A stretch of DNA of 32,732 nt from Microcystis aeruginosa LEGE 91341 (GTDB lineage Bacteria; Cyanobacteriota; Cyanobacteriia; Cyanobacteriales; Microcystaceae). The stretch's first letter is position 1; each line of letters opens with the position of its first letter. The notes under the pieces were generated by a model. The model saw nothing but the letters and a program-made list of their open reading frames with translations. It was not told the DNA's origin and searched no databases. The stretch spans positions 1 through 32,732 of the forward strand of contig NZ_JADEXY010000039.1 in NCBI RefSeq assembly GCF_015206885.1, in the 5' to 3' direction. Below are positions 7,321 to 31,416 of the stretch, piece by piece. Position numbers and translations under genes: made by a program.

Positions 7321-9618
7321 ATGTTCAACCAGCTTGATTGGAATCCAGCCTACTCAATTGAAACCCTAGAACCAAATACGGTATTTTTTCTATCTGAGCG
7401 AGAATCAATCTGTTTTCAAGAGCCGCTTTATTATCGTTTAGTAAGATTAATCGATGGTCAACGTAATCTTGATGAAATTATTGATATTCTTCAGTTAGAA
7501 TTTTTACAAAATCAAGAAATCAATCCCAATAATCCTAATTCGTTTGCAGTGATTATTAATTATAGTCTGGCAATTCAAAAAGCGATTTTCCAGTTATATA
7601 AACGAGGGTTTTTGTTAGAAAAAAAAGAATTACTGTCGTCTAATTTAGCAATTTTATGCCATCATCTTCAGGTTTCTCAAGACCAAGCTTTTGAACGATT
7701 ACAATCTCTGAAGGTTACGGTTAAAAGCCTAGGCTCAATTCCCCGGCAAGATTTGATCAATATTTTAAATTCCTTGCAAGTTCAAGTCGCAGATGAAGGG
7801 GATTTAACCATTATTTTAACCGATAATTATCTTCATCCTGATTTAGATAGTATTAATCAACAAGCTTTAGTCTCACAAAAGCCTTGGTTATTAGTTAATC
7901 CCCTGGGAAACCTAGCATGGATTGGTCCCTTATTTTATCCCGATAAAACTGGTTGTTGGCATTGTTTGGCTCAACGATTACGAGATAATCGTCCCGTGGA
8001 GGAATTTATCATTAGACAGAGAGAAAATAAGATTTCTTTAATTTCTCCTTTAGGGTTTTCTTCAGCGACAATACAGACGGTTTTAAATCTGACGGCTATG
8101 GAGGTTTTTAAGTGGATTATTCAAGGTAAAAATCAACGTTTAGAAGGAATGCTGATGACTTATGATACTTTAAATTTACAATTTCAAGAGCATATTTTAG
8201 TTAAACGTCCGAACTGTCCTAGTTGTGGATATTCTCTGAATAAAACACCTTTACCCGTGGTTTTGGGACATCGGAAAAAGTGGTTTACCAATGATGGTGG
8301 ACATCGTTTTTGTTCTCCTGAAGAAACCCTAAGAACCTATCAACATCTTATCAGTCCTATTACGGGAATTGTGCGAGAATTAAATAAGATTCCTGGGAAT
8401 ACTTTAGTTCATACTTATGTGGCGAAACATCATTTTCGTAGTGTGTTTGATGATTTAGACAGTTTACGGCAAAATATTGGAGGTAGAAGTGCGGGAAAAG
8501 GCCGTACAGATAGTCAAGCAAAAGCAAGTGGATTTTGTGAAGCTATTGAGCGCTATTCGGGGGTTTTTCAAGGGAATGAAATCAGAGAAAAAGCCAGTTA
8601 TCAAGAGTTAGGAGATAAAGCTATTCATCCTAACAAATGTATGAATTTTAGTGAAAAACAATATCAACATCGAGAAGAATGGAATGCGAAGAATCAAGGA
8701 TGGTTTCAAAAAGTCCCTGAACCTTTTGATGAAACTAGAATCATTGATTGGACTCCTGTGTGGTCTTTAACTGCTCAAGATTTTAAGTATTTACCCACAG
8801 GATATTGTTATTATGGTTATCATCAATCTGAACCCTTAGATTGTTGGGCTGATTCTAATGGCTGCGCCGCAGGAAATACGATAGAAGAAGCGATTTTACA
8901 AGGGTTTATGGAGTTAGTGGAACGGGATTGTGTGGCTTTATGGTGGTATAATCAATTAGTTAAACCTTCCGTTAATCTGGAAAGTTTTGATCAGCCGTAT
9001 TTTGAGCAATTAAAGCAATATTATGAGTGGTTAAATCGGGAGCTATGGGTGTTAGATATTACCAGTGATTTGAATATCCCTTGTTTTGCCGCTATTAGTC
9101 CGAGAAAGGGGCGGGAAGTGGAGGATATTTTATTAGGATATGGGGCGCATTTTGACCCAAAAATTGCTATTAGTCGAGCGTTAACGGAGGTTAATCAAAT
9201 CTTACCGAATGTGTTATCTTTTAAGGACGATGGGACAACGATTTATAATCCTTCTGCGGATCCTTTGGCGGTTAAATGGTGGCAAACGGCAAGGTTAAGC
9301 AATCAATCTTATTTAGTTCCCGATAGTAAAATAATACCCCAAAAAAGTTATGATTATTTACAATTAGCTAGTGATGATTTATTAGAGGATGTTAAATTGT
9401 GTCAGCGAATTGTTGAGTCAAAGGGGATGGAAATGTTAGTATTAGATCAGACTCGTCCCGATATTGGTTTAAGAGTTGCTAAAGTCATTATCCCCAGAAT
9501 GCGTCATATGTGGAAGCGTTTAGGGACAGGAAGATTGTATGATGTTCCTGTTAGCATGGGATGGTTAAAAGAAGCTTTGACGGAAGATGAATTAAATCCT
9601 TTTCCCATGTGGATGTAA
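7321..9618 (+). CDS. TOMM-type cyclodehydratase: RRE + ThiF-like + YcaO fusion
   Basis: This 765-residue protein has the layout of fused azoline-forming cyclodehydratases such as cyanobactin PatD/TruD. Residues 1-100 look like a PqqD-type RiPP recognition element (IETLEPNTVFFLSERES, LYYRLVRLIDGQRNLDEIID). Residues about 110-310 are an E1/ThiF-like region with two cysteine pairs, CWHC (212, 215) and CPSC (299, 302), expected to hold zinc. From about 370 comes the YcaO ATP-binding domain: AGKGRTDSQAKASGFCEAIERYS at 391-413, NGCAAGNT at 513-520, ELVERD at 531-536. The C-terminus, NPFPMWM, is proline-bearing as in azoline-forming YcaO enzymes. Known members use ATP to cyclise Cys, Ser or Thr of a precursor peptide. 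No precursor, FMN dehydrogenase or subtilisin-like protease is adjacent; convergent TA genes follow. The enzyme class is secure; the substrate is unknown. Confidence 0.88.
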   Translation: MFNQLDWNPAYSIETLEPNTVFFLSERESICFQEPLYYRLVRLIDGQRNLDEIIDILQLEFLQNQEINPNNPNSFAVIINYSLAIQKAIFQLYKRGFLLEKKELLSSNLAILCHHLQVSQDQAFERLQSLKVTVKSLGSIPRQDLINILNSLQVQVADEGDLTIILTDNYLHPDLDSINQQALVSQKPWLLVNPLGNLAWIGPLFYPDKTGCWHCLAQRLRDNRPVEEFIIRQRENKISLISPLGFSSATIQTVLNLTAMEVFKWIIQGKNQRLEGMLMTYDTLNLQFQEHILVKRPNCPSCGYSLNKTPLPVVLGHRKKWFTNDGGHRFCSPEETLRTYQHLISPITGIVRELNKIPGNTLVHTYVAKHHFRSVFDDLDSLRQNIGGRSAGKGRTDSQAKASGFCEAIERYSGVFQGNEIREKASYQELGDKAIHPNKCMNFSEKQYQHREEWNAKNQGWFQKVPEPFDETRIIDWTPVWSLTAQDFKYLPTGYCYYGYHQSEPLDCWADSNGCAAGNTIEEAILQGFMELVERDCVALWWYNQLVKPSVNLESFDQPYFEQLKQYYEWLNRELWVLDITSDLNIPCFAAISPRKGREVEDILLGYGAHFDPKIAISRALTEVNQILPNVLSFKDDGTTIYNPSADPLAVKWWQTARLSNQSYLVPDSKIIPQKSYDYLQLASDDLLEDVKLCQRIVESKGMEMLVLDQTRPDIGLRVAKVIIPRMRHMWKRLGTGRLYDVPVSMGWLKEALTEDELNPFPMWM

Positions 9619-10533: not shown

Positions 10534-11028
10534 CTAAGCAATACAAGCGCGTAAATCATTAAGAGTAATCATCAACGTCATCGGTTCAAGAGGAGACACA
10601 TCAAAACCTAAAGCCAAATAAAAATTCTTAGCTTCTTCTGAAATAGCATGAACAATAATTCCCCGAATACCAATGGTATCAGCCGCTTTAACAACCCGTA
10701 GCGCACCATCACGAAATAAACCGCATCCTAAACCTTGACCTTGGTAAGAAGTATCTACTGCCAATCGTGCCAAAATTACCACTGGAATTGGGTTAGGCAT
10801 ATTCCGCCGAAATTTACCATTAGCTGATTGTATACTAATCGTCCCGGAAGCAAGGGCGTAATACCCAACTACCCTATTGTCAACGCAGGTAACAAAAGTT
10901 CTAGTTGCACCACTGGCTTGATTAGCATAAGCTCGACGCTTCAACCAATCATCAAAAGAAGTAATTCCGCAGGAAAAATCAGTGATTGAGTGATAACTAG
11001 CCAGAGGTTCAGGTAGTGTCAAATTCAT
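10534..11028 (-). CDS. tacT: TacT-like GNAT acetyltransferase toxin
   Basis: A 164-residue protein from the ATG at 11028. That start forms an ATGA overlap with the upstream antitoxin; a TTG at 11040 is the alternative. The GNAT fold shows the acetyl-CoA pyrophosphate-binding loop QGQGLG within ARLAVDTSYQGQGLGCGLF, and a C-terminal FYLALGFDVSPLEP. The N-terminal FDDWLKRRAYANQASGATRT is typical of TacT/AtaT toxins, which acetylate the amino group on charged tRNAs and stop translation. Coupling to a DUF1778 antitoxin supports the call. All visible motifs are intact. A GTAGGGGCAA-type inverted repeat follows the stop. Confidence 0.88.
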   Translation of the reverse strand: MNLTLPEPLASYHSITDFSCGITSFDDWLKRRAYANQASGATRTFVTCVDNRVVGYYALASGTISIQSANGKFRRNMPNPIPVVILARLAVDTSYQGQGLGCGLFRDGALRVVKAADTIGIRGIIVHAISEEAKNFYLALGFDVSPLEPMTLMITLNDLRACIA

Positions 11029-11315
11029 TCCTTCTGCCAAGGTGCGAGCGTCTGCATGGTTTTGCGTAAACGTTCATTAGGTTGAGGTGGTGCATCTAGA
11101 AGTGCGATAAATTCTGCATAAGCCTCTGGACTAGCCCAAAAAATAGTACGTTCGAGCAAAGTTTCCTCCGCAGCATTCCGCGCGGCTTCCAAAATAAAAT
11201 CAGTTCTATTCTTACCTTGCACTTTGGCTGCCATATCGATCAAATTGCGTTCTTCTGGCTTAATTCGCAAATTTAGGGTATTACGCGGAGTCTTACTTTT
11301 TGTTTTACTACTCAT
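11025..11315 (-). CDS. tacA: TacA-like antitoxin (DUF1778)
   Basis: A 96-residue protein from the ATG at 11315; a TTG at 11336 would extend it. The N-terminal half, PRNTLNLRIKPEERNLIDMA, is a ribbon-helix-helix DNA-binding segment. The middle (NRTDFILEAARNAAEETLLE) and tail (SPEAYAEFIALLDAPPQPNE) match DUF1778 antitoxins, whose C-terminal part wraps the GNAT toxin. It overlaps tacT by four bases (ATGA), so the two are translationally coupled. A 31-bp palindrome upstream is a good operator candidate. Confidence 0.87.
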   Translation of the reverse strand: MSSKTKSKTPRNTLNLRIKPEERNLIDMAAKVQGKNRTDFILEAARNAAEETLLERTIFWASPEAYAEFIALLDAPPQPNERLRKTMQTLAPWQKE

Positions 11316-11351
11316 AGGATGGGTGTGTAATTCCAAACTTAATTATTTTAA

Positions 11352-11884: not shown

Positions 11885-12604
11885 CTAATCTTGAACTAAC
11901 TCAAACATTAGCACATTAGTTAAGTTATATGTCAGAGCAGTTTGACCAGCAGGGAAATTTACTTGGGTCGGTTGACTTATTGCGATGGTCGTTGGCTTCG
12001 CACATTCCATCATAATACTAGAGTTACTCGGTGTGAAAGATGGCAATACGCTTCCTTTCGGTGTGAAAGATGGCAATACGCTTCCTTCCGGAATATCGGT
12101 CACCGTAAGGTAATAAATCGTGTTTGTGTAGAACTGATACTGAGTCCCTGGTTTTCCTTGAGATGCTAATATTGGTTTATCGTTCATATACAGTGCAACA
12201 CTCATTAAAGATGATTGTTCCACTGTAAAACTTGTATCTGTAATTATTTGCATAACCCCATTGTCAATCTTGTCATTATTGTATGGTGAACTTGAACTGA
12301 ATTTAAAACTTCTATCATCGTATTGTATCTGAATCTCATTGGATCCATTTGCGTCATTGGGTTTGACTTCTATTTGGTTCTGAGATACATACGCCACACC
12401 AGGCTTGAGAGGTTCTGAGGTAGAACCAAAACCCAGATACCATTTTGTACACCATGTGAAAGTATAATTGTTGCCACTAAGAATTTTTTGACTCAACCAG
12501 ACAAGAGGATATCCCGATCCTGGATCATCAACTTGAAATAGGGCAACATCTTGGTCTGCTCCACTTAAGTTTTTTATTGTTAATGAATATTGTTGTATAG
12601 TCAC
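11885..12604 (-). CDS. RhiA-like protein, copy 1
   Basis: A 239-residue protein starting at GTG (12604) and lacking a clear Shine-Dalgarno. It is paralogous to the next gene: both begin YSLT(I/V), have SGADQDVALFQ / SGAAQNIAIYQ, then PLVW, TFTW/TFSW, LxPGV, MSVALYMN/MSVAAYMN and QGKPG/QGKPN. The pattern resembles proteins annotated RhiA, a rhizosphere-expressed family of unknown biochemical role, built of beta strands with no signal peptide or membrane segment visible. The start is fixed by alignment to the paralogue. Between the last conserved blocks it carries a 30-bp tandem duplication that repeats GSVLPSFTP. The family assignment is moderately sure; no function can be stated. Confidence 0.65.
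   Translation of the reverse strand: MTIQQYSLTIKNLSGADQDVALFQVDDPGSGYPLVWLSQKILSGNNYTFTWCTKWYLGFGSTSEPLKPGVAYVSQNQIEVKPNDANGSNEIQIQYDDRSFKFSSSSPYNNDKIDNGVMQIITDTSFTVEQSSLMSVALYMNDKPILASQGKPGTQYQFYTNTIYYLTVTDIPEGSVLPSFTPKGSVLPSFTPSNSSIMMECAKPTTIAISQPTQVNFPAGQTALTYNLTNVLMFELVQD
12031..12090 (-). repeat. 30-bp tandem duplication inside RhiA-like copy 1
   Basis: Two adjacent 30-bp units (each starting GTGTGAAAGATGGCAATACG) differ at one position. They encode GSVLPSFTP(K/E) twice, in frame. The near-identity indicates a recent duplication, likely by replication slippage. Confidence 0.92.
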
Positions 12605-12770: not shown

Positions 12771-13400
12771 CTATGCCACAACAAACTGTAATTTATCGTT
12801 TAACACATATGAAAGCGATGTTAAGCCATCAGCAAACGTAAATTGTGTCGGGCTGCTCACGTAGTCGTCCGAGATAGCCACGCCTTGGTGCGAATCAGTC
12901 GTACAGAGCCAATAAGTTGGATGAGTATGGAAGTTATACTTTCCATTTGGTTTTCCTTGAACTGCAAGTGCTGGAAGTTTATTCATGTAAGCGGCGACAC
13001 TCATAAGTTTTGCCTGTGTAACCGTAAATGATGTATCAGTCGTGACTAGCATATCACCTGGTTTAACAGAGGAACTGTAAAATGCTGGGGAGTTAGTTGA
13101 AAATTCGCCGTTTACATAAGTAATCCCCATCGCATTATTACCCCCCTGTACAGCTGGCTCCATACTTTGATATGGCCCTCCTGAAGTCCACTTTACGCCT
13201 GGCGCAAGAACATCTTCAGTCGTTCCCCAGTTTAAACCCCAATCGACCGACCAAGAGAAAGTCGTGTTGTTACCATCATTGACGTTTTTGAGAATCCACA
13301 CAAGTGGTAAACCGTTCACTACATCAGGATATTGTTGGTAGATTGCAATGTTTTGGGCTGCGCCACTATTGTTGGTTACTGTTAGTGAATAGTCTGACAT
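12771..13400 (-). CDS. RhiA-like protein, copy 2
   Basis: A 209-residue paralogue of the downstream gene, starting MSDYSLTVTNNSGAAQNIAI with an AGAGGAAC ribosome-binding site. It is Asn-, Ser-, Thr- and aromatic-rich and predicted mostly beta. No signal peptide, membrane helix or catalytic motif is visible. Family landmarks shared with copy 1 are PLVWILKN, TTFSWSVDW, LAPGV, TSFTVTQAKLMSVAAYMN and QGKPNGKYNFHTHPTYW. The resemblance to RhiA-type proteins is from memory. Both copies and the 76-residue gene upstream point the same way, but the roughly 165-200-bp gaps between them suggest separate leaders or promoters. Confidence 0.65.
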   Translation of the reverse strand: MSDYSLTVTNNSGAAQNIAIYQQYPDVVNGLPLVWILKNVNDGNNTTFSWSVDWGLNWGTTEDVLAPGVKWTSGGPYQSMEPAVQGGNNAMGITYVNGEFSTNSPAFYSSSVKPGDMLVTTDTSFTVTQAKLMSVAAYMNKLPALAVQGKPNGKYNFHTHPTYWLCTTDSHQGVAISDDYVSSPTQFTFADGLTSLSYVLNDKLQFVVA

Positions 13401-14856: not shown

Positions 14857-15111
14857 TTATTGGAGGGCTGATAATTCTTCCCGAAGAATACGGCGTAAAT
14901 CGGACTGAGTGAGCGATCGCTCAGAAGGAGATTGGATATATTGTTTTAAAGTCTCATTAATTAGGGTTTGATAACCCATTCCTGCGGTTTCAGCCTGTTC
15001 TCGAAAATAAGCTAGAATCTCATCATCTAGATAAATGGTAATGCGTGTTTTCCCCTGAGAGGAAATGAGCGCCCCTCGTTTTCCTTTAGAAAAATCATAT
15101 TCCTTTCTCAT
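14857..15111 (-). CDS. brnA: BrnA-type antitoxin
   Basis: An 84-residue protein from the ATG at 15111, starting MRKEYDFSKGKRGALISSQG. The stretch KTRITIYLDDEILAYFREQAE, then GYQTLINETLKQYI, is the ribbon-helix-helix DNA-binding fold with the BrnA signature. It follows and overlaps brnT by 17 bases, the standard toxin-first BrnTA order. The C-terminal helix (SLTQSDLRRILREELSAL) overlaps a HIP1 octamer in DNA. BrnA binds BrnT and represses the operon. Confidence 0.87.
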   Translation of the reverse strand: MRKEYDFSKGKRGALISSQGKTRITIYLDDEILAYFREQAETAGMGYQTLINETLKQYIQSPSERSLTQSDLRRILREELSALQ

Positions 15112-15367
15112 AAGTTTTTCTCTCTTGTTTTGTAGCACGACGAGCGGAAATCAAGCGAATGACTTCACCCCGCAAAGTATAAATAACCACTAATAGTGAT
15201 CCCATGTTTCCCATCCCCACTGCAATAAAACGTTCTTCTGTTATACAACCGGGATCAAGATCATGAATAGCGAGGGGATCAAAAAACACCATTTCAGCTT
15301 CTGCAAAGGAAACACCGTGCTTTTGCCAGTTGGTTTTTGCTTTTCTGGGATCATATTCAAATGTCAT
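15095..15367 (-). CDS. brnT: BrnT-type RNase toxin
   Basis: A 90-residue RelE-fold ribonuclease toxin. Motifs: FEYDPRKAKTNWQKHGVSFA (the FEWDexKxxxNxxKHGVSF family start), the DPLAIHDLD strand, ERFIAVGMGNMGSLLVVIYT, and the basic catalytic end IRLISARRATKQERKTYEKG. Full length, with brnA overlapping its end. A perfect-arm palindrome (ATACAT...ATGTAT) lies just upstream of its ATG and is the likely BrnA operator. Confidence 0.9.
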   Translation of the reverse strand: MTFEYDPRKAKTNWQKHGVSFAEAEMVFFDPLAIHDLDPGCITEERFIAVGMGNMGSLLVVIYTLRGEVIRLISARRATKQERKTYEKGI

Positions 15368-15661: not shown

Positions 15662-16747
15662 ATGCTCAACGGGTACAAAATTATTGATGCTGATTCCCAT
15701 GTCATTGAACCCCCCGCAATGTGGGGACAATACCTAGAACCTAAATTTAGGGAATTTGCTCCTTCTGCTGACATGAAAATCAAAGGAGAACCGATTAGTC
15801 AAAAAATCTCCCCACAAGTCCAAGCAGAAGGGAATAAGCAGATGATGCAAGCTCATCCCCACGCTTATCTCAATCGCTATAACCCAGAGTCCCATGTTCA
15901 ATCTATGACACAAATGGGCATAGATGTGGCTTTTATTTATCCTAATTACGGACTGTGGTTATTTGCCATTGATAGCCTACCCGCCGAAGTGATTGGGGCT
16001 TTTGTCCGTGCCTATAATAGATGGTTATATGAAGAATATTGTAGCTATGACCCGGCTAGACTGAAAGGAGTCGCTGCAGTCAATCAACACGATCCCGAAG
16101 ACATGGTCAAAGAGCTACACCGTATGGCAAACTTGGGCTGGAGGGCGGTTTTTTTGCGCCCTAACCCCGTTAAAGGCAGAATTTTGAGCGATCCAGCCTA
16201 TGAACCCTTTTGGGCGGCCTGCGAGGATTTGGACATGGCTGTAGGAATTCATGAAGGCACTCATAGCCGCCTACCCACCACTGGTGCAGAGCGATTTAAT
16301 AGTCGGTTTGCGCTTCATGCTTGTTCTCACCCGATGGAACAAATGATGGCACTGTTAGCCTTAATTGAAGGGGGGGTGTTAGAACGTCATCCGAGGCTGA
16401 GGGTGGCGTTTCTAGAGTCAGGGTGTGGTTGGCTTCCCTATTGGTTATGGAAGCTTGACGAAGAGTATAAAAATTTACATTGGGAAGTCCAAGATCGGGT
16501 AAAATTATTACCATCGGAGTATTTTCGCCGTCAGTGTTACATTGCAGTGGAACCCTCTGAACTCTGTTTGGCTCAGGTCATTGATTTTATCGGTTCTGAT
16601 AACTTAATCTTTGGGTCTGATTATCCTCACATGGATCATCAGGCTGATGGAGTAAAAAAAGTTATAGGACTTGAAGACAACTTATCTCAGGAGATAGTCA
16701 AAAAAATCGTTTGGGAAAATCCTCAGCGATTTTATTGTTCAATTTAA
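15662..16747 (+). CDS. Metal-dependent amidohydrolase (ACMSD-like, amidohydrolase 2 family)
   Basis: A 361-residue TIM-barrel hydrolase or decarboxylase of the PF04909 type. Metal-site landmarks are intact: DADSHV at residues 9-14 (His13), GIHEGTH at 195-201 (His197, His201), and FGSDYPHMD at 317-325 (Asp320). LESGCGWLPYWLWKLDE, typical of the family, is also present. Members hydrolyse C-N bonds or decarboxylate aromatic acids; which applies here cannot be read. Length is normal. No Shine-Dalgarno precedes the ATG. The next gene starts 23 bases after its stop, so the two are very likely cotranscribed; a radical SAM gene follows. Amidohydrolases do trim some RiPPs (bottromycin), so a peptide-tailoring role is possible but unproven. 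Confidence 0.85.
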   Translation: MLNGYKIIDADSHVIEPPAMWGQYLEPKFREFAPSADMKIKGEPISQKISPQVQAEGNKQMMQAHPHAYLNRYNPESHVQSMTQMGIDVAFIYPNYGLWLFAIDSLPAEVIGAFVRAYNRWLYEEYCSYDPARLKGVAAVNQHDPEDMVKELHRMANLGWRAVFLRPNPVKGRILSDPAYEPFWAACEDLDMAVGIHEGTHSRLPTTGAERFNSRFALHACSHPMEQMMALLALIEGGVLERHPRLRVAFLESGCGWLPYWLWKLDEEYKNLHWEVQDRVKLLPSEYFRRQCYIAVEPSELCLAQVIDFIGSDNLIFGSDYPHMDHQADGVKKVIGLEDNLSQEIVKKIVWENPQRFYCSI

Positions 16748-16770
16748 TTTCTCAAAAAGGAAGCACAGTT

Positions 16771-17433
16771 ATGTTTGAAACTCGTAGCTTATTCTACAAG
16801 GCAGAAAAAGTTATTGAAGCCGCTAATAAAATGGAAGGGGAATGCCCACACATTGGTTTTTTACAGCGTCTTTATCAACAGTCAAAACAAGTTTCTCAAA
16901 TTATTGCTTATATTTGGCGATGGGCTGATGAAAATAACGAGAAATACGCCGAGCAAAAGAGAGTGGCCAATCTCTTAAGGACTTATTTTGAACATCCGAC
17001 CTCAGACCAGGGATTGAAAGAAGGAAAGAATGCTGATCACCTCAAAAAATTGTTTGGAGCTAATCCCAAGCAACTACCAGAAACCGTTGATGAATCTGAT
17101 CCAGCTTATTTACTGAAACAAGTCTTCTTTTCTCCAGACGTTCCTCCTCCACCCAATGAATATACTTTTCCAATCTTTGATGAATATGAACTGGGAGAGA
17201 AAAACCGAAGCTTGGGTTACTTATTTGAAGTGACGTATAGTAGCTTTATTGGTCAAATATTGGATGCAGATAACAATGCACCAGAGTTGTTTAAAATGAT
17301 TATTCCCTATCCACCTGAGCCGTCATGGGGAAATGCCACTTTAAATGCAGATGATTTGTCCGACTGGATATCAAACCGACAACCAGGGAAATATTTTGCC
17401 GACAATCCTTATATTCCGACAACTTGTTCCTAG
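16771..17433 (+). CDS. Unrecognised 220-residue protein, possible substrate or partner of the radical SAM enzyme
   Basis: From the ATG at 16771 (AAAAAGGAAG ribosome-binding site); a TTG at 16711 would add 20 residues overlapping the amidohydrolase. The N-terminal half is helical (SLFYKAEKVIEAANKM, LQRLYQQSKQVSQIIAYIWR, EQKRVANLLRTYFEH). The middle is proline- and aromatic-rich (PDVPPPPNEYTFPIFDEYEL). The C-terminus, PGKYFADNPYIPTTCS, ends in a short Thr-Thr-Cys-Ser tail. No signal peptide, membrane segment or catalytic motif is seen. I do not recognise the family. It sits between an amidohydrolase and a radical SAM gene, and is followed by a hairpin. The cyclisable or cross-linkable tail makes a RiPP-like substrate conceivable, but the 220-residue length is long for a precursor; it could equally be an accessory protein. 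Confidence 0.8.
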   Translation: MFETRSLFYKAEKVIEAANKMEGECPHIGFLQRLYQQSKQVSQIIAYIWRWADENNEKYAEQKRVANLLRTYFEHPTSDQGLKEGKNADHLKKLFGANPKQLPETVDESDPAYLLKQVFFSPDVPPPPNEYTFPIFDEYELGEKNRSLGYLFEVTYSSFIGQILDADNNAPELFKMIIPYPPEPSWGNATLNADDLSDWISNRQPGKYFADNPYIPTTCS

Positions 17434-17462
17434 AAGCCTTGCAAATTAATTACACAAAAATA

Positions 17463-17497
17463 AAAATTCCTCGCCTCACCTAAAGGGTGGGGATTTT
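17463..17497 (+). terminator. Hairpin after the 220-residue gene
   Basis: AAAATTCCTCGCC, loop TCACCTAAA, then GGGTGGGGATTTT: a 13-bp stem allowing G-U pairs, with A and T runs on the outside. It lies 30 bases beyond the gene's stop and 20 bases before the radical SAM start. It is probably an intrinsic terminator or attenuator. Related hairpins are frequent in Microcystis intergenic DNA. Confidence 0.6.
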
Positions 17498-17517
17498 ATC
17501 GTTAAATTAGTCAAAAA

Positions 17518-18897
17518 ATGATTATTAAAGATCCTCAGAACCTTTTATCTGATCTGACAATAAATAATTCTATCTTTTCAGATAGAATTCTTGAGATTCC
17601 CTCTCATAATATTCCTTTGCATCCTCATAGTATCAAAAAATTGCTAATGACGGCTAAGGATAAATATGCGGTTGTTGTCTTTCAGCCAACTCTACCCATT
17701 CTTTCAGACTTGGGTTTGCCTAGTTATCCTATACTAGCGTATTTATATCCCCAAGAATTAAGTGATATTTGGCATCAATTACAACCCCAGATAGAGACAT
17801 TCCTAACAAGCCAAACTATTCAACCTCAGCCTATTCCATTAGTTTTACTATCGGCAATAGATAGAGATGAGCAGTTACATTATTTTAGTTGTCATTATGG
17901 AAAAGCGATCGCACCTTCTTATGTCAGAGTTGTTGTTGGTAACACTTGTAATCTTAAGTGTGTTATGTGTCCCTATCATAGTTCTTCGATAAAGTCTAAT
18001 CATACTACAGATTTTTTTCAAAAGAAAAAAGTCATGTCTTGGGAGATGATGGAAAAACTAGCAGCAGACTGTGGAAAAGCAGCAACTACCATTTTAATAG
18101 GTAGTGTTGAAGAACCATTACTTCATCCTAAACTTATAGACTTTATTCAACTTTGCCGACAGCAAGGTGTTCCAAAAGTTCATCTAACTACTAATGGTCA
18201 ACTTCTGAATAAAACTTATATTAAAGCTCTGTTAAAATCGGGTTTAACCAGTATTGATATTAGTCTTGACGCGGCGACTCCAGAGACTTATTTAAGAATT
18301 CGAGGTGGAGATTTAAGCCAGGTCGAATCTAATATGATTGATCTGTTAAGAATTAGAGATCAGTTGGGTATTGACTGCGAAATCAGAACCTCTTTTGTCA
18401 GAAATTACAATGTTAATATTGAGGAAGAAGAAGCATTTTTAAATCGTTGGTTATCAAAAGTTAATAGTGTTTTTATCCTTAATATTGCTGAATATCAAGA
18501 AAACAATATGCGACTAAAAAAACACAATCAAGGGGTAAAAAAATCTCTCCAATATTATCAACAAAAAGCGCAAGGGCGCTGGACTTGTTTATTCCCTTTT
18601 CTTGAAATGGCAGTTTTACCCAATGGCAAAATCTACTACTGTATAGAAACCTTATTTAGACTAGGTTTTGATCAAGAGATTGAAAGTTTAGGGGATTATA
18701 ATCAACAAACTTTACAAGATATTTGGTCGGGAGAGTTATTCCAGCAACTACGACAAGATTTAATTCTTAATCAATTAGAAAAAAGAAGGGCTTGTCAAGA
18801 CTGTGAGATGTGGAAATCGCAGATAATTCATCAAGAACTAAAAGATGGATACTCAGTGCTAACCACAACGGTGACAGAAATTTATTCTCAAGTCTGA
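17518..18897 (+). CDS. Radical SAM protein with SPASM-like C-terminus
   Basis: 459 residues. The radical SAM cluster motif is CNLKCVMC (Cys144, Cys148, Cys151), preceded by a 130-residue N-terminal extension of unknown fold. Barrel landmarks include IGSVEEPLLHPKLIDFI (the GGE-like strand), LTTNGQLLNK and SIDISLDAATPETYLRIRGG. The C-terminal part has WTCLFPF (Cys357), KIYYC (Cys375) and CQDC (Cys426, Cys429), consistent with a SPASM/Twitch auxiliary iron-sulphur cluster. Such proteins mature peptides (thioether or C-C cross-links) or activate enzymes. It lies 84 bases after the 220-residue gene with a hairpin between, and 72 bases before the giant kinase gene. No Shine-Dalgarno is evident. Enzyme class is sure; substrate is unknown. 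Confidence 0.88.
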   Translation: MIIKDPQNLLSDLTINNSIFSDRILEIPSHNIPLHPHSIKKLLMTAKDKYAVVVFQPTLPILSDLGLPSYPILAYLYPQELSDIWHQLQPQIETFLTSQTIQPQPIPLVLLSAIDRDEQLHYFSCHYGKAIAPSYVRVVVGNTCNLKCVMCPYHSSSIKSNHTTDFFQKKKVMSWEMMEKLAADCGKAATTILIGSVEEPLLHPKLIDFIQLCRQQGVPKVHLTTNGQLLNKTYIKALLKSGLTSIDISLDAATPETYLRIRGGDLSQVESNMIDLLRIRDQLGIDCEIRTSFVRNYNVNIEEEEAFLNRWLSKVNSVFILNIAEYQENNMRLKKHNQGVKKSLQYYQQKAQGRWTCLFPFLEMAVLPNGKIYYCIETLFRLGFDQEIESLGDYNQQTLQDIWSGELFQQLRQDLILNQLEKRRACQDCEMWKSQIIHQELKDGYSVLTTTVTEIYSQV

Positions 18898-18969: not shown

Positions 18970-21900
18970 ATGAAAGATTATCAACTAATCACAAAAATTT
19001 ATGAAAGTTCTAGTTCTCTAGTCTATCGAGGCATTTTTAAGGCAAATGCTCAACCGATTATTCTTAAAATTCTTAAAGAAAATTATCCAACTCCTTCAGA
19101 GATTACCCGTTATCGACAGGAATATGAAATTATCCGTTCTTTGAACATAGACAGTGTTGTTAAAGCTTATGATTTACAGCGACACTATAATAGTTTGATA
19201 ATGTTTTTAGAAGATTTTGGAGGTCGATCTTTAGAGTTATTGCTATCTCAAGGTAAGTTAAATTTGGAAAACTTTCTTTTGATCGCTATTAAAATAACTG
19301 AGGGGTTAGCTGCTATTCATCAGGCTAATATTATTCACAAAGACATTAACCCATCTAATATTGTCTATAACCCTGAAACCGAACAACTGAAAATCATTGA
19401 TTTTGGTATTTCCACCTGTTTATCCCAAGAATTTTTCACAGCTTGTCCTCCTAACCAATTAGAAGGGACTTTAGCTTATATTGCCCCAGAACAAACAGGA
19501 AGAATGAACCGAGGTCTAGATTACCGTAGTGATTTTTATTCCCTTGGAGTTACTTTATATGAACTTTTAACCAATCAATTGCCCTTTGAAACCACCGATC
19601 CTATGGAGTTAGTTCATTGTCATATTGCCCAACAACCTTTACCTGTTCATCAACTCATTCCAGAGACTCCCTTAACTCTCTCTAATATCATTAACAAACT
19701 GCTCGCAAAAACCCCAGAAAAAAGATATCAAACTGCCTTGGGTATTAAAGCTGACTTAGAAATCTGTCTTCATCAATTAAAGACGTTAGGACAGATTGCT
19801 CAGTTTTCTTTAGGTGGTCAGGATCTGACTGATAAATTTCAGATTTCTCAAAAAATATATGGTCGAAAACGGGAAGTTACTCAACTTTTGAAGGCTTTTG
19901 AGCGGGTTAGTCAAGGAACCACTGAAATAATCCTCATTTCTGGCTATTCAGGGATTGGGAAATCAGCTTTAGTTCATGAAATTTACCAACAAGTTACATA
20001 TAAGCAAGGGCGATTAATTAGAGGAAAATTTGATCAGTTACAAAGAGATACTCCTTATTCAGCTATTTCTCAAGCCTTTCAAATCTTAATCCGTCAACTT
20101 CTAGGTGAGCCAGAAAATATTCTCCAAGCTTGGAAAGAGAAAATTTTGGAGGCATTGGGTAAGAACGGTCAAATTATTATCGATGTTATTCCCGAAGTTG
20201 AAAAAATTATTGGCAAACAGCAACCTGTTGAACTATTAGGAGGAAGCGAAAGTCAAAATAGATTTAATTTATTTTTTAAACGATTTATCAATGTTTTTTC
20301 TCAAAAAGAAAATCCATTAGTGATATTTATCGATGATTTACAATGGGCAGATTTACCCTCTTTAAACTTAATTGAACAATTAATATCAGATTCTGACATT
20401 AAATATTTTCTGATAATTGGAGCCTATCGAGATAATGAAGTTAGTTCGATTCATCCTTTAATGAATACTTTAGAAAAAATTCAGCAATCACAAGTTTCTG
20501 TATCGAAAATTACTCTTGCTCCTTTACAGATGAAGCACATTAATCAATTAATTGCTGATACCTTAAGTTGTTCGATAGAAGTTACTATGCCTTTGGCAGA
20601 TTTGGTGACACAAAAAACAGGTGGAAACCCCTTTTTTATCGCTCAGTTTCTCTATTCCTTATACCAAGATGGTTTCATAATATTTAATCCTTCTTCTACT
20701 AAATTAGAAGATAATAAGCAAAGTTATTGGCAATGGAATCTTACCGAAATTAAAAGTCTATCAATTACCGATAATGTCGTTGATTTAATGATCCATAAAA
20801 TAAAAAAATTAGCTCAAAAAACTCAAAATATTCTAAAATTAGCCGCTTGTATTGGTAATCAATTTAGTCTAGAAGCTCTTTCTATTGTAAGTAATACATC
20901 TCAATATATTACGGCTCAAAAACTACAATTAGCCCTTGATAAAGGGTTAGTAATACCATTAGATAATAACTATAAACTAGCTCTACTCTGGGATTCAAAA
21001 GAATTATCGAGGCAACTCTTAGAAACTGAAACTTTGGGTGGGTATTCTAACTATGTTTCCTATAAATTTTTACACGACAGAGTACAGCAAGCAGTTTATT
21101 CTTTAATTCCAGAGGAAGAAAAGAAAAGGACTCATCTACAAATTGGTCGCCTACTGCTAAAAAACATTACAGACGATGAATTATTAAACAATATTTTTGA
21201 AATTGTTAATCAACTTAATGAAGGTTCTGAGCTAATTACTGAGCAACAAGAAAAAGATAATTTGGCAGAATTAAATCTTAAAGCTGCTAAAAAAGCTAAA
21301 GCATCAACTGCTTATGAAACAGCATTAAAGTATTTAGATTCTGGTCTCAGTTTATTAACAACTAATAGTTGGAGTGAGCAGTATCAATTGACTTTAGAAC
21401 TTCATGAAGAAAAATTACATTCTCTCTTTCTTAATACAGAATTTCAGCAAATTTTATTTTATTCAAATATCATTATTAACCAAGCTAAATCGATCTTAGA
21501 TAAAGTCAAAACATATCAGATAAAGATTGAATTTTACTATGCAAATTTTCAACCTGATCAGGCGATTGATACCGCTTTAAAAACTTTGAAAGAACTGGGA
21601 ATTTTAATTTATAGAAGAAATGGCAAAAGTAATATTAATCAAAGCATTAATAAGTCCTTAAATTTAATTCTACAAAAAAGGAAAATTGACGATTTAGAAA
21701 GCCTTCCTGTTATGACTGATCCCTATAAGCTTAAAGCCATTCAAATCTTACAACAAATAATGTCTTCGACGGCAACTACTGATCCCCTATTACATATAAA
21801 AATAATCCTCAAACAGATTGATTTATTTATCAACCATGGAAATTCTCCTGAATCAGCAGCAACATATAGCTACTATGGAATGATATTATGTGGCTCTATC

Positions 21901-24753
21901 AATAATTATAATTTAGGATATGAATTTGGTAAATTAGCCCTTAAATTGCTCGATAAATATAATATTCGTCAAGTACAAGCTCTTATTATACAGACACATT
22001 ATGGATGTATATATCACTGGAAAGAGTATCTGAGAAATAAAGAGATCGATAACGAGTTACTAAAGAGTTTTCAAATCGGTTTAGATGTAGGGGATAACCA
22101 GTTTGCCTCTTATGTAGCTATAGACTATTGTATTTATAGACTGTTGGGAGGTTATCATTTGGAAGAAGTTGAACAGGAATATATCAAGTATAATCGAGTT
22201 ATTAAAAAACTCAAGCAAACTTTTTCCTCTTTTTACCAAGAAATTTCTTATAATATAGTCAATAATTTACAAAAAAGCTTAAAAAAAGAAATTGCTTTAT
22301 TTGTCGGTAAATCCCCTGAAGAAGAAAATGCAGTTTTAGACCAATTAAATCAGACTAACAATGAATGGTTACTTTTTCTGATTTACTTTGCTAAACTATT
22401 ATTATTTTATCTTCTTAAGATTTACAAGTCGGCAGTTACTTATGGAGAAAGAGGACTTCAATATATTGCCAACCCAACTATAAACTCATTTTTGATTTCT
22501 CCTCAACATAATTTCTATTCATCGTTGAGTTTTCTAGCTTATTGTCATGATACAGAGCAAAATGATCAAAAGAAATTACTACAACAAGTAGATAACAATC
22601 AGAAAAATATGGCAAAATGGGCAAGTCATTGTCCAGCAAATTTTCAACATAAATATGATCTAGTCGAAGCAGAAAAAGCGAGAGTCTTAGGTCAAAACTG
22701 GAAAGCTCAAGAATTTTATGAAAAGGCAATTGAAGGAGCAAAAAAATATGAATTTATCCATGAAGAGGCTTTAGCTTATGAACGTGCCTCTGAATTTTAT
22801 TTTACTTTAGATAGAGAAGAAATCGGTAAACTATATCTCAGAAATGCTCACCATTGTTATATTCGTTGGGGTGCAAAGGCCAAAGTTAAACAATTAGAAG
22901 AAGAATACCCTCAATATTTATTAGGCATCAGCAATCAAAACAAATCTAAAGGACTTAGTACCACTATTTCAACTACTGGCAATGATGGAGCAGTTCTTGA
23001 TTTAACCACTATTCTTAAAGCCTCGCAAGCGATTTCTGGAGAAATTAAACTGGAAAATCTTCTGCAAAACTTAATGAAAATTGTCATTGAAAATGCAGGA
23101 GCGCAGAAAGGTTGTCTGATTTTAGAGAAAGAAGGCAACTGGGTTATTGAAGCCCAAGGCGCAATCGATGAAGAAACTATTAATATCTTACAATCAATTC
23201 CCATAGAATCTATCGACCATAATAACTCAATTCCCATTTTACCCACTAGCATTATTAATTATGTCGCTCGGACAAAAGAAACTATCGTTTTAAACGATGC
23301 CACTTCATCAGGTCAATTTACCAATGATTATTATATTGTGGCTAAACAAACTAAATCCATTCTTTGTACTCCTTTACTCAATCAAGGCCAATTAAAAGGA
23401 ATTGTTTATTTAGAAAATAATTTAACAACTAGCGCATTTACCTCAGAAAGAGTTGAACTATTAAATATTCTAGCAGCTCAAGCTGCTATCTCTATTGATA
23501 ACTCCAGACTCTATCAAACCTTAGAACAAAGAGTAGAAGAACGGACAAAAGAACTCACAAACACTTTAGAGGTACTGAAAGCAACTCAAGCGGAACTTAT
23601 CTTTGAAAATGACCTACTTAAAAGTGCTGAACAACCTCCCAAATTTGTCTATCAAGTGGGGGGAAGTTTACCGATGGATGCGCCGAATTATGTGGTTCGA
23701 CAAGCTGATCGCAATCTTTATAAAGCTCTCAAACAAGGTCTATTTTGCTATGTTTTAAATGCACGTCAAATGGGAAAATCTAGCTTAATGGTGCGGATGA
23801 TGAGCCAATTACAAAAGGAGGGAATTAGATGTGCAGTAATTGACTTAACTCGGCTAGGAACAGATAATATTAACCCTGAACAATGGTATAAAGGATTAGC
23901 CGTTGATCTGCTCCGCAGTTTTGGATTAATCAAACAATTGAAAACTTTTAAAGCTTGGTGGACTGAACAGTTAGACCTGCCTCCTGTACAACGATTAGGA
24001 CAATTTATGGAAGAGTTTCTTCTAGTTAATGACGATTTTAATCAGCGGCAATCTAGACAATCAACTGTTATATTTATTGATGAAATTGATAGCATTTTAG
24101 GGTTAAATTTTGAAGTTTCTGACTTTTTTGCTTTAATTCGTTCTTTTTATAACCAAAGAGCGATTCAACCTCAATTTCAAGGGCTAACTTTTGCCTTTTT
24201 TGGTGCTACCACACCTTCAGCTTTAATTACTGACCCCCAGAAAACACCTTTTAATATTGGTAACGCTATTGAATTAGCAAGTTTTAAAGAACACGAAGCC
24301 CAACCTTTATTATATGGGTTAACAGAAAAAGTCAGTAATCTTCAGACAATGCTTAAACAAGTCTTAAGCTGGACGGGAGGGCAACCTTTCTTAACTCAAA
24401 AACTCTGTCAACTGATGCGGGATAGTGAGCAACCAATCCCCTCTAATCAAGAAGAACAATGGTTGGCCAACTTAGTAGCAGAAAAAATTATTCAAGATTG
24501 GGAGATGCAGGATCAACCCGAACATTTAAAAACTATTCAAGATCGCCTTCTTCAAAGTCCAAACCGAACCCAATTATTAACCTTGTATCGACAAATTCTC
24601 CATCAAGAAGCAATACAGATTGATAACAATCCCTATTTACCTGAGTTATTTTTATCTGGATTAGTGGTAAAACGCCATGGCAAAATGGACATTCATAATC
24701 GAATTTATCAGACGATATTTAATAATGATTGGCTTGAGCGATCGCTATCTTAA
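18970..24753 (+). CDS. Giant Ser/Thr kinase-AAA-helical repeat-GAF-AAA fusion
   Basis: 1927 residues. Residues 1-270: Hanks-type kinase with Lys33 (IILKILK), catalytic Asp125 in [11 protein letters not shown] at 144-146 and [22 protein letters not shown]. Residues about 295-620: PknK/AAA_16-type ATPase, Walker A GYSGIGKS 325-332, Walker [12 protein letters not shown] from 451. Then about 700 residues of TPR-like helices. GAF domain from about 1358 to 1515. A short coiled coil ([20 protein letters not shown]). In most relatives this coil leads into a histidine kinase; here residues about 1555-1927 are instead an AAA-like (AAA_35-type) P-loop domain, with NARQMGKSS at 1597-1605 and VIFIDEID at 1700-1707. 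It is probably a cytoplasmic sensor and signal switch. Both NTPase sites and the kinase look active. The gene ends 21 bases from a convergent gene carrying a related AAA domain. Confidence 0.9.
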
Positions 24754-24774: not shown

Positions 24775-26112
24775 TTATACCGAACCAGTATATTGACTTA
24801 TAAAGTACTTTTGATACAAATGACAACTGACAATTGCTTTATTTTCTCTGAGTTTAATTAAACCCATACTATTAAGTTTATAAGCAATAATTGGATTAAC
24901 TATCATTGGTTGATTCCCTTGACAAATCTGTTGAAAAACATCAGCAAGTTCAGGTTGTTTTTGTAAAGTGACCCAGTGAAGCTGTAAATGAGAGGAATAA
25001 ATCCCCGTTGATGTGGTTGCTGATTTGATTAAATCTTCAATCGTGATTCCCTCTTGGCTAAGATGATAAATCGCTAAATGAATCAAGGCAGGATGTCCCC
25101 CCACTAAGTCGATCAATTGTTGAATTTCGTTGGTTGCTAATTCATTTAATTGATATTTTTTGGCCAATTCTGCCACTTGTTCTTGACCAAAACCCTGTAA
25201 CTCTATAGGTAATCCCACATTAAAAGGAGACTGTTCTAATCGCAGAGAAACATAAGATTCTGTGGATTGAACAATAATTAAACGTAATTTCTGCCACAGG
25301 GGAGATCGCTTAGATTCTTCATAACAAGCTCGGATTAAAGGTAAAAAATCTTCCGCTACTTTCGGGTGTTCAAAGACTCGATGCACTTCATCAAAAGCCA
25401 ATATCAGTGGCTGTTTTATCTCTCGTAAAATATACTCTTCAAAATAAATTGTCCAACTCATTTTAATTCCTATATCTTCATCCCAATAATCATCTAATTT
25501 GGCTTCTAAATTCAACTGCCGAGCGCAATTACGGCAAATCCAGCGTAAGAACTTGTTAAAATTTGCTATAATGTCTTGGTCTGCTTTTTGTAAATCTAAA
25601 CTAACAATTTGATAACCGAACTCTTGTTGACAAGCCTCTAAAATTGTTAATAATAAAGACGTTTTTCCCCATTTTTTTGGAGCCTTAATGCGAACTAACG
25701 AGCCAGATCGACCGATTTCTTCGATAATTTTTGCTTCAAGTTTTGTTCGTTTTAGATAATAATAAGAATTATAGGGAACAGGAGCATCGGGGTATTCTGG
25801 CCGCTCATTCTGGGGATATTCATTACCGCAATACTGAAGCGATGTGGAGTTGGTAAAATGAGATTGTAGTCTAGATAAAAAATTTTTCTTATTGATCGTT
25901 TGTCCGATCAGTTGCGAGACTTTATCATAGAGTCCTGGCGCAACTACATTGGCAAGATAGCTGCTACTATAACCATTTTCTTGGGCAATTTCTTGATAGC
26001 TCTTTTTCTGCCAAAGTCCTCGCAATAATAATTGTTCTGTGTCATTGAGACAGCGATTCTCAAGCTTGAGCAGTTGCCCATTAAGAATCTCTTGGATTTC
26101 CTCGAATTTCAT
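24775..26112 (-). CDS. VMAP-like HTH + AAA-like ATPase
   Basis: 445 residues from the ATG at 26112; 29 residues upstream in the same frame look non-coding. Residues 1-85 resemble the helix-turn-helix N-terminus of vWA-MoxR-associated proteins (MKFEEIQEILNGQLLKLENR, SYQEIAQENGYSSSYLANVV). Residues about 100-400 are an AAA_35-type ATPase: PVPYNSYYYLKRTKLEAKII, Walker A APKKWGKTS (144-152) and Walker B LILAFDEVHRVF. The tail is a winged-helix-like segment (LNSMGLIKLRENKAIVSCHL). These domains recur in NTP-dependent regulatory or conflict systems of multicellular and colonial bacteria, often with variable effectors; none is fused here. It converges on the giant kinase gene, which ends in a domain of the same type. 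Confidence 0.8.
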   Translation of the reverse strand: MKFEEIQEILNGQLLKLENRCLNDTEQLLLRGLWQKKSYQEIAQENGYSSSYLANVVAPGLYDKVSQLIGQTINKKNFLSRLQSHFTNSTSLQYCGNEYPQNERPEYPDAPVPYNSYYYLKRTKLEAKIIEEIGRSGSLVRIKAPKKWGKTSLLLTILEACQQEFGYQIVSLDLQKADQDIIANFNKFLRWICRNCARQLNLEAKLDDYWDEDIGIKMSWTIYFEEYILREIKQPLILAFDEVHRVFEHPKVAEDFLPLIRACYEESKRSPLWQKLRLIIVQSTESYVSLRLEQSPFNVGLPIELQGFGQEQVAELAKKYQLNELATNEIQQLIDLVGGHPALIHLAIYHLSQEGITIEDLIKSATTSTGIYSSHLQLHWVTLQKQPELADVFQQICQGNQPMIVNPIIAYKLNSMGLIKLRENKAIVSCHLYQKYFISQYTGSV

Positions 26113-26559
26113 TATTTTTGTCCAAGGTAAGAAGATTTGAAGAAATAGATTGTTTGATTTTCCAGTTCCGTTGCAGCCAGAAATGTTGAATCTTGACATA
26201 ACGGCAGCGATTCAAACTGGAATTGGTATATTTGACAAACAAGCTGACGAGAACCAGTAACCGACAAAATTGTGCGACGGCAACACCGAGAGGGATTAGT
26301 TTCCCCCCTTGCTAGGAAATTATAGCATTTCTTGTCAAGGTCAATTACACGGCGAGCAATTATCTCTTGATAATTTCTATCAAAACCCCTGAGTCTTCAG
26401 CGTCTAACTCCTCAATAATCCTATTAAGAATTAATTTGGAAAAATCCTCACAGGAGTTGACTAGACAGGGTTTTAGCAATCAGATGTACTGCATTTAAAC
26501 TGCCTATTGGCAATTTTAGTACAGTGGCTGCTCCCAATCTTGCCAACAACTCTGAACAG
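26113..26559. other. 447-bp intergenic region
   Basis: Spacer between the AAA gene and the glycosyltransferase gene. AT-rich, with no frame I can support and no clear repeat or terminator. It must carry the AAA gene's promoter. Confidence 0.5.
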
Positions 26560-27771: not shown

Positions 27772-27847
27772 AACTTTACCAACTTTAGCGTTTAATCTTG
27801 AGCGATAGCAGCTGATTAATAACCCACTGATTACCACTCATCGATTA

Positions 27848-30484: not shown

Positions 30485-30577
30485 TTGCCCCTCCCCTAGT
30501 AAAGATAAAGTGATCAAGTAGTTAGTAGTTTCAAGAAATAATTGCTATAAATGCTATTCTGCTATTTTTTTGAGGTT

Positions 30578-31108
30578 TTAAGCCGCCCAACGGGTAGAAC
30601 GGAGTATGGCCAGATGATCGAGTAGTCTTAAGGTTTTTTTTGATTCTTGGCCTAGAATCCACTCTCCTCGCACATAGGGGGCAATCTGATCGGGAATACT
30701 GGCGGCACTGCCTAGTTGATCTGAGTCGAGCCATTCCACATCTCCCAAACGTTGCACCGCTAAACCGAGGATCGTTTCCTGTTCTTCAATCACAATTACG
30801 GGAATTTCGGATCGATCGGTATTTAAGCGGCTGTTATCCCCCAAAAATTGACCGAGATCCGCCACCCAGATCACTTTACCCCGGAGATTGATCGCACCGA
30901 GGAGCAAGGGTGAAGCATTGGGAATTGGGGTAATGCGATCGAGTGGTTGCTGCATCACCTCGCGAATGCCCACAGCACTAAGGGCAAACTCGTCCTGAGA
31001 GGGTAGATAAAATCGCAAGTGCAGTTCACCGACGGGGGTTTGTAATTCCTGATTGTCGGGGGCGGTATTTTGAGCGTCACCAGTAAAAAAATCGGTATCG
31101 TTAAGCAT
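30578..31108 (-). CDS. pilI: CheW-like adaptor, PilI-like
   Basis: A 176-residue single CheW domain that couples a chemoreceptor to its histidine kinase. Landmarks: FYLPSQDEFALSAVGIREVM, ITPIPNASPLLLGAINLRGK (the CheW hallmark), VIWVADLGQFLG, VIVIEEQETILGLAVQRLGD and a C-terminal ILGQESKKTLRLLDHLAIL. About 35 residues precede the domain. It lies 93 bases upstream of pilJ. Its own upstream spacer to pilH is split by a 210-bp MITE-like insert, which may have separated the two transcriptionally. Confidence 0.9.
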   Translation of the reverse strand: MLNDTDFFTGDAQNTAPDNQELQTPVGELHLRFYLPSQDEFALSAVGIREVMQQPLDRITPIPNASPLLLGAINLRGKVIWVADLGQFLGDNSRLNTDRSEIPVIVIEEQETILGLAVQRLGDVEWLDSDQLGSAASIPDQIAPYVRGEWILGQESKKTLRLLDHLAILRSTRWAA

Positions 31109-31130
31109 TTGTTTTGTTCTCTTGTAAGTA

Positions 31131-31340: not shown

Positions 31341-31416
31341 CTAAGTAATAGTTCGGTCAGCGTTTTTAGCCGTCTTGACCAATAGCATAGCTAGACTGTC
31401 CCCGATGAAGGCGATT

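Follow-up and report, generated by a model that had tools for sequence, protein, structure and literature searches.

A predicted protein-sized precursor of the NHLP type and its candidate azoline cluster in Microcystis aeruginosa

The stretch of DNA analyzed here (the window) is one entire contig of 32,732 nucleotides (NZ_JADEXY010000039.1) from the 4.5-Mb genome of Microcystis aeruginosa LEGE 91341, a member of a genus known for its blooms. It carries three neighbouring genes, for an amidohydrolase, a 220-residue protein and a radical SAM/SPASM protein (Table 1). The 220-residue protein is very likely a giant derived precursor of the nitrile hydratase-like leader peptide (NHLP) type in a thiazole/oxazole-modified microcin (TOMM) pathway, in which the C-terminal TTCS would become tandem azolines, with a YcaO protein as the core enzyme and the amidohydrolase and radical SAM protein as accessories. 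This assignment rests on sequence and gene context, namely the precursor family, its tail pattern, the co-occurrence of genes and the relation to NHLP leaders. An initial annotation of the window had described the three genes correctly, all on the forward strand, with a gap of 23 bases between the first two and a middle protein ending in NPYIPTTCS, although it had missed the YcaO cyclodehydratase gene and the gene for a 1927-residue kinase just downstream. Its proposal of a protein-modifying system holds in that the 220-residue protein is most likely the substrate of a modifying system, but the core enzyme is most likely YcaO and not the radical SAM protein. An alternative TTG start at 16711 would extend the 220-residue gene into an overlap with the amidohydrolase gene.

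The C-terminal tail of the 220-residue family

A profile built from eight homologues was run on 388 genomes of the order and detected the family in 64 of them; a single genome had as many as six matches (at most six candidates were scored per genome). When the phylum was sampled, 19 of 386 genomes were positive and all 19 came from the same order, in a listing that does not state what share of the 386 genomes belongs to other orders. Fetching 68 loci around matches gave 69 with the window; at least one family open reading frame (ORF) was present in 68 of these, and L103, where none was found, was left out. Across the family, precursor size ranged from about 120 to 400 residues.

The ends of 95 family ORFs were examined with a border pattern consisting of an aromatic residue or His, a hydrophobic residue or Cys, and Pro, Val or Ile, followed by two to six residues, the Ser/Thr/Cys content being no criterion. 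Eighty-eight ORFs fitted this pattern, and the remaining seven (one masked, the others split pieces or ORFs with other ends) were dropped before the counts. Because ORFs with other ends were dropped, the conservation of the border is partly due to selection, while the Ser/Thr/Cys content is unaffected. The commonest border among the 88 members was Y-[I/L]-P, followed by three to five residues. Ser, Thr or Cys was found in 90, 84 and 84% of them at positions -1, -2 and -3 and in 40% at position -4, with shares of 1 to 23% at positions -5 to -15 and 13.4% in the body. For 482 other proteins encoded in the same loci, the values at the three C-terminal positions were 16, 14 and 16%, and four of these proteins ended in three such residues, compared with 58 of the 88 family members. 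Tails also differed between close relatives: four genes with bodies 95.2 to 96.5% identical in DNA ended in MSCC, MSCSC, MSCAT and MSCAS, and 25 pairs (not independent) with a body identity of at least 75% had a mean identity of 63% in the tail and 90% in the eight preceding residues. ORFs shorter than 120 residues were left out of the pair identities, as well as of the tree, the shuffle controls and the SQxxAxxW count described below.

The initial annotation had been right that the C-terminal tail matters, but the PTTCS letters themselves are not conserved. Behind a conserved border stand variable, heterocyclisable residues, for the most part Ser, Thr and Cys. This kind of variation points towards a YcaO core and does not speak against a substrate role. 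By these counts and comparisons, the family shows a leader/core pattern, with a conserved border and a hypervariable, heterocyclisable tail.

Some loci showed signs of duplication or damage. The 20 kb of L047 (G309:C212:13000-32900) hold ten precursor-like ORFs or pieces with differing tails, together with a masked stretch and an additional ORF that we take to be TnpB-like. The precursor of L017 is broken into two frames and the amidohydrolase genes of three genomes of the same genus (G024, G027 and G029) contain an internal TAG, from which the cluster seems to have decayed in some lineages. Short amidohydrolase fragments just 5' of precursor copies in L055, L056, L057, L081 and L083 are probably relics of tandem duplication.

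Relation to NHLP leaders and to YcaO enzymes

The 220-residue protein had been described as matching no known family, and Pfam, NCBIfam and PADLOC indeed gave no match, but profile comparison placed it as a distant relative of NHLP leader peptides. YcaO loci without a match to the initial profile, most of them with an amidohydrolase, often contained an ORF of about 110 residues ending in ACC, SCC, GCSC or TVCC. Ten of these short precursor-like ORFs were scanned; five matched TIGR03793 (NHLP) at 1.1e-8 to 7.2e-13 and five did not. When a profile of 32 family members (A2) was aligned by hhalign with a profile of 11 short ORFs (A5, six of which had been in the TIGR03793 scan, five of them matching), the probability was 97% (E 1.1e-10), and sixty column-shuffled controls reached a maximum of 0.6%. 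The precursor profile gave nothing significant against solved structures, with an NHLP chimera (8tb1) third at E 0.86.

According to the available part of PMC12455567, the YcaO enzyme MprC binds its NHLP precursor through residues Q7, S10, Q11, A14 and W17 of helix 1 and through L(X)4L, where Val or Phe may stand in for Leu. The spacing of S42, Q43, A46 and W49 in the window protein equals that of the MprE7 contacts S10, Q11, A14 and W17, and L191-(X)4-L196 follows a proline-rich stretch. SQxxAxxW was present in 52 of 83 family members (mean 0.12 and maximum 2 in 100 shuffles), and a relaxed proline/L(X)4L/W pattern was present in 75 of 88 (maximum 6 in 100 shuffles). The same order of parts is described for a proteusin leader in what was seen of PMC10858898. 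By profile homology, the 220-residue protein is related to NHLP/proteusin leader peptides, as a large and derived form.

The candidate core enzyme matched PF02624 at 1.2e-102 and, above their cut-offs, TIGR03604 (8.1e-78) and TIGR03882 (3.6e-55). Residues S403, E407, E410, R411, Q527, E531, E534 and R535 and cysteines 212, 215, 299 and 302, which we take to be ATP- and zinc-binding motifs, were conserved in at least 98% of the 41 sequences aligned. These model matches and conserved residues identify a YcaO protein with a fused leader-binding partner, and the linked precursor, 6 kb away in the window, has a variable Cys/Ser/Thr-rich C-terminal core; both are hallmarks of a TOMM cluster. YcaO directly adjoins the amidohydrolase and the precursor in L016, L046, L051 and L067.

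Across the 388 genomes, a YcaO match at E<=1e-150 was found in 57 of 64 family-positive and 73 of 324 family-negative genomes. Close YcaO proteins (at least 57% identity; a set picked by hand from the match listing) were present in 53 of 64 positive and 14 of 324 negative genomes (Fisher 5e-41). Loci of all 14 negatives were examined, and a search of their small set of ORFs with the iterated profile at E<=0.01 recovered a family ORF in eight of them, three of them weak and of the short NHLP type (G089, G201 and G305), and a ninth (L149) had a matching tail by eye. The other five gave no family ORF by iterated profile; two are at contig ends and one (G027) has a broken amidohydrolase. The amidohydrolase followed the family as well, in 58 of 64 positive and 33 of 324 negative genomes, and YcaO was present in 87 of 91 amidohydrolase genomes compared with 43 of 297 others.

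Neighbours within 10 kb were counted among ORFs of more than 150 residues, a considerable share of the loci being truncated at contig ends. The amidohydrolase was found in 54 of 68 loci, the kinase in 53, YcaO in 41, an AAA_35 protein in 33, the radical SAM protein and H475 in 11 each, and SagB/ThcOx in one. Directly upstream of the 95 family ORFs we found the amidohydrolase in 35 cases (same strand; short fragments included), another family member in 20 and H475 in 10, while the direct downstream neighbour was the kinase in 31 cases, a family member in 20, YcaO in 14, the amidohydrolase in 10 and the radical SAM gene in nine. The two H475 proteins read (L014 11986-13413 and L065 7743-9395) share a haem-type CxxCH motif and match nothing in Pfam. 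An azoline oxidase of the ThcOx/SagB type belongs to the L014 cluster, and SagB-like ORFs occur in the short-precursor loci L131, L133, L141, L142, L156, L157, L158 and L160. Two loci (L139 13467-14292 and L150 12536-13326) have pairs of ORFs of about 110 residues ending in GILRIS/GIMRHS or GVLRVC/GIMRQS beside YcaO and the amidohydrolase, possibly a further precursor type.

Several features are shared with the NHLP/proteusin TOMM clusters (TIGR03793), as far as the portions seen of PMC2887384 (Haft et al. 2010), PMC12455567 and PMC11583998 go: a long folded leader with an SQxxAxxW helix, a proline-rich stretch and L(X)4L, a YcaO with a fused leader-binding part, and a variable Ser/Thr/Cys core. 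Those systems have a leader of about 80 residues and a longer core, 30 residues in nostatin A (PMC11583998, in part), whereas here the precursor spans about 120 to 400 residues, the core amounts to three to five residues at the very end behind a PY(I/L)P border instead of Gly-Gly, Amidohydro_2 is a conserved partner and the window protein matches no NHLP model. The best solved relatives of the window YcaO are the cyanobactin heterocyclases MusD (7u58), LynD (4v1t) and TruD (4bs9), each at 3.3e-195 or better, and it can be aligned with them over nearly its whole length. The cluster differs from cyanobactin systems in that Pfam scans of 23 of the 40 window ORFs showed no PatA/PatG-type protease, and the precursor is presumably not PatE-like. 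A protease of this type (TIGR03895, 5.2e-224) lies near the cluster of L011 (13390-15345), from the same genus.

Docking, azoline formation, the amidohydrolase and radical SAM reactions and regulation are predicted as follows. The precursor body would act as a folded leader whose SQxxAxxW helix and L(X)4L motif dock on the leader-binding part of YcaO, placing the C-terminal tail in the active site. With ATP, YcaO may then cyclise the Ser, Thr and Cys residues after PYIP into up to four contiguous (methyl)oxazolines or thiazolines, which would leave an azoline carboxylate at the C terminus. The metal-dependent amidohydrolase could act at or next to the azolines, by release of the short tail, trimming or decarboxylation, and, in the subtype that mostly has Thr as its first core residue, the radical SAM protein would introduce an additional modification. 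Regulation of the cluster would probably fall to the giant kinase.

A number of observations weigh against this scheme. The window YcaO gene lies about 6 kb upstream of the precursor gene, with toxin-antitoxin pairs and other genes in between, and the scanned window ORFs include no protease or exporter for ribosomally synthesized and posttranslationally modified peptides (RiPPs). YcaO was absent within 10 kb in 27 of 68 loci, many but not all of them on cut contigs, and at E<=1e-150 from seven of 64 family-positive genomes. Some members have poor cores (VTF, IAHS and LASL), the tail is stable within some subclades (TTCS in the window, L011 and L012), and GG or GA occurs in the last 25 residues of only five of 88 members and never directly before the core. 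The NHLP relation has its own weak points: the window protein had no NCBIfam match at all, the NHLP model included, and the five short-ORF matches to TIGR03793 scored 35 to 48 bits, all under the cut-off of 50.9. The smaller first profile (A1) alone reached 45% against NHLP, and the hhalign alignment covers the latter half of the leader (residues 151-207 of the window protein), which includes the L(X)4L stretch but not the SQxxAxxW helix. The window protein keeps four of the five helix residues, with K39 at the position of MprE7 Q7; the strict SQxxAxxW motif is missing in 31 of 83 members, and L(X)4L with Leu at both positions occurs in only 12 of 88.

Accessory enzymes and alternative explanations

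The radical SAM protein matched Radical_SAM at 7.8e-18 and SPASM at 1e-10. In an alignment of 11 sequences that includes the window protein, at least 90% have each of the cysteines noted in the initial annotation, C144/C148/C151 and the C-terminal C357, C375, C426 and C429. With this CX3CX2C motif, the four C-terminal cysteines and a SPASM match above cut-off, the enzyme resembles BtrN/twitch-type and SPASM radical SAM enzymes; however, it exceeded the cut-off of none of the 25 NCBIfam models listed (of 43), and its PDB matches were weak. At E<=1e-60 it was found in 12 of 330 genomes, all 12 with YcaO and each time beside a family precursor. The 11 precursors adjacent to it fall, together with 13 rows of no group, in one 24-row branch (support 96/74) of a tree built on few columns, in which the group test sets radical SAM rows against H475 rows alone. 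The first core residue was Thr in 10 of these 11 precursors and Ser, Thr or Cys in 14 of the 77 others (not corrected for shared ancestry); the enzyme may modify this Thr or oxidise an azoline. It seems to be an optional extra in the pathway. The hairpin that had been noted before its gene exists but is modest: the 84-base spacer folds at -15.9 kcal/mol (z -2.04), as well as which six of 200 shuffles folded. Among the other spacers aligned, its stem is preserved in L011 and L012 and was not seen in L013 and L045, and a role in setting the enzyme-to-substrate ratio is possible. We rejected a repeat or insertion sequence end as its origin, the motif being single copy in the genome with one mismatch allowed.

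The amidohydrolase residues D11, H13, H197 and D320, presumably the metal ligands, were conserved in at least 95% of the 54 sequences aligned. Among solved structures the best match of the enzyme is PtmU3 (6omp, 4.8e-44), and many of the rest are decarboxylases. The bottromycin analogy drawn in the initial annotation proved useful. PurAH/BotAH is likewise an amidohydrolase within a YcaO RiPP cluster. PurAH removes a follower peptide and is called thiazoline-specific in a reference title (PMC10885120, in the part consulted), whereas the window enzyme belongs to PF04909 and is nearest to PtmU3. As far as the bottromycin sources were seen, that type has a stand-alone YcaO and a follower instead of a leader, while the window YcaO is fused and the variable tail is C-terminal.

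Different roles for these proteins were weighed against the precursor assignment. If the radical SAM protein were the main modifier of the 220-residue protein, with the amidohydrolase trimming it and no azolines formed, the adjacency of the two genes in the window and the restriction of the enzyme to genomes with these clusters (12/12) would be accounted for. Yet in 57 of 68 family loci, some of which are truncated at contig ends, the surrounding 10 kb contain no enzyme of this kind, and 318 of 330 genomes searched do without it, while the Ser/Thr/Cys tail and the YcaO association are family-wide. We therefore rejected the radical SAM protein as the core enzyme, a role that the initial annotation had given it, on co-occurrence (11/68 loci and 12/330 genomes), and consider this explanation extremely improbable. 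The amidohydrolase could instead be a hitch-hiker beside a real azoline cluster, a PtmU3-like hydrolase or decarboxylase serving other metabolism, as its solved relatives and the absence of the RiPP enzyme PurAH by name from its match list would allow. Its genome-wide association with YcaO and its position directly upstream of family ORFs speak against this possibility, which we regard as unlikely.

The 220-residue protein itself might be a partner and not the substrate, acting as a leader-like scaffold, adaptor or regulator while the true YcaO substrate is encoded elsewhere. Its size is unusual for a RiPP precursor and some members have poor tails, but this view, which appears very unlikely, has to contend with the hypervariable heterocyclisable C terminus, the tandem copies with different tails in L047 and the NHLP relation with its docking residues. 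Cys-rich ends such as PCCCS and MSCCC could also be taken for a metal-binding, lipidation or sorting signal, with only an indirect YcaO neighbourhood. However, Cys-free tails (LSTT, LSSS and TTSS) occur, the mix of residues fits the YcaO set better than a single lipid or metal motif, and the co-occurrence with close YcaO proteins leaves such a signal highly implausible. Two other origins were tried and rejected. For antiphage defence, PADLOC matched only the kinase (PD-T4-6 and others) and the radical SAM protein (pVip), which was read as general similarity, and gave no match for the precursor, the amidohydrolase, the AAA_35 protein or YcaO; for a mobile origin, the precursor had no match in phage records and its L046 paralogue none in plasmids.

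Surrounding genes and significance

The kinase downstream of the radical SAM gene matched the TOMM kinase/cyclase model TIGR03903 at 4.3e-42, below cut-off. Beside NHLP-Burk TOMM precursors there is also a large Ser/Thr kinase, according to the part of PMC2887384 at hand, which parallels the 1927-residue window kinase; the giant kinase probably regulates the cluster. Between YcaO and the amidohydrolase, on the reverse strand, are two toxin-antitoxin pairs (14857-15367 and 10534-11336), BrnA/BrnT (PF14384, PF04365) and TacA-like/GNAT (PF08681, PF13508), and two similar proteins (11885-12604 and 12771-13400), paralogues by eye, without a Pfam or NCBIfam match at E<=0.01. Beside the AAA_35 gene, glycosyltransferase-TPR, MCP-type receptor, CheW and response-regulator genes form a chemotaxis-like operon (26560-31782, reverse strand). 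ATP-binding cassette (ABC) genes at 124-2589 resemble those of amino-acid importers, and neither a peptidase-containing ABC transporter nor a flavin mononucleotide-dependent dehydrogenase was found among the scanned ORFs, the scan being confined to the window.

Table 1. Coordinates of the predicted cluster and its parts in the window
Feature	Position	Strand	Properties
Fused TOMM cyclodehydratase (ThiF-like/leader-binding part + YcaO)	7321-9618	+	765 residues; predicted azoline-forming enzyme
Amidohydrolase (Amidohydro_2)	15662-16747	+	361 residues; PF04909 1.8e-33; predicted metal-dependent trimming, release or decarboxylation enzyme
220-residue protein	16771-17433	+	ATG start; predicted protein-sized NHLP-like TOMM precursor
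Residues K39-W49 (KQVSQIIAYIW)	16885-16917	+	SQxxAxxW; predicted helix-1 docking motif for the YcaO leader-binding domain
Residues P181-W199	17311-17367	+	Proline-rich stretch (PPEP), L(X)4L motif LNADDL (191-196), W199
Predicted core T217-T218-C219-S220	17419-17430	+	After NPYIP
Hairpin in the precursor/radical SAM spacer	17474-17492	+	Terminator- or attenuator-like
Radical SAM/SPASM protein	17518-18897	+	459 residues; PF04055, PF13186; predicted optional accessory modifier of one precursor subtype
Ser/Thr kinase-AAA-GAF-AAA_35 protein	18970-24753	+	1927 residues; Pkinase, AAA_16, GAF, AAA_35; likely cluster regulator
AAA_35 protein	24775-26199	-	474 residues; PF14516 1e-132; frequent neighbour

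Among the matches listed, titles and abstract openings in the open-licence literature gave no description of this family or gene set, and since subscription papers were largely outside this coverage, the novelty of a protein-sized NHLP-type TOMM precursor as a new variant is provisional. A TOMM survey (PMC4603692) has no word starting with amidohydrolase or kinase, and PMC2887384 has none starting with amidohydrolase.

With the predicted pathway, a protein family that has no Pfam, NCBIfam or PADLOC match and occurs in about one-sixth of the sampled genomes of the order would gain a function and a product open to testing, and amidohydrolase, radical SAM, YcaO and giant-kinase genes would be joined into one system. 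NHLP leaders would be extended to protein size with a core of three to five residues, which would provide a natural test case for the reading of folded leaders by YcaO enzymes and possibly a tool for tipping proteins with heterocycles. More speculatively, and with slightly less confidence than doubt on our part, cyanobacteria may place tandem azol(in)e units of three to five residues on the ends of folded proteins of about 120 to 400 residues, so that either the whole tipped protein is the product or Amidohydro_2 releases the tip. In the former case, the protein would carry a ribosomally encoded chelating or reactive prosthetic tip, and in the latter, an azoline-specific Amidohydro_2 enzyme would yield one of the smallest RiPP products. 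From one tandem copy to the next, the tail would vary in the manner of a combinatorial library, with a giant kinase over the whole.

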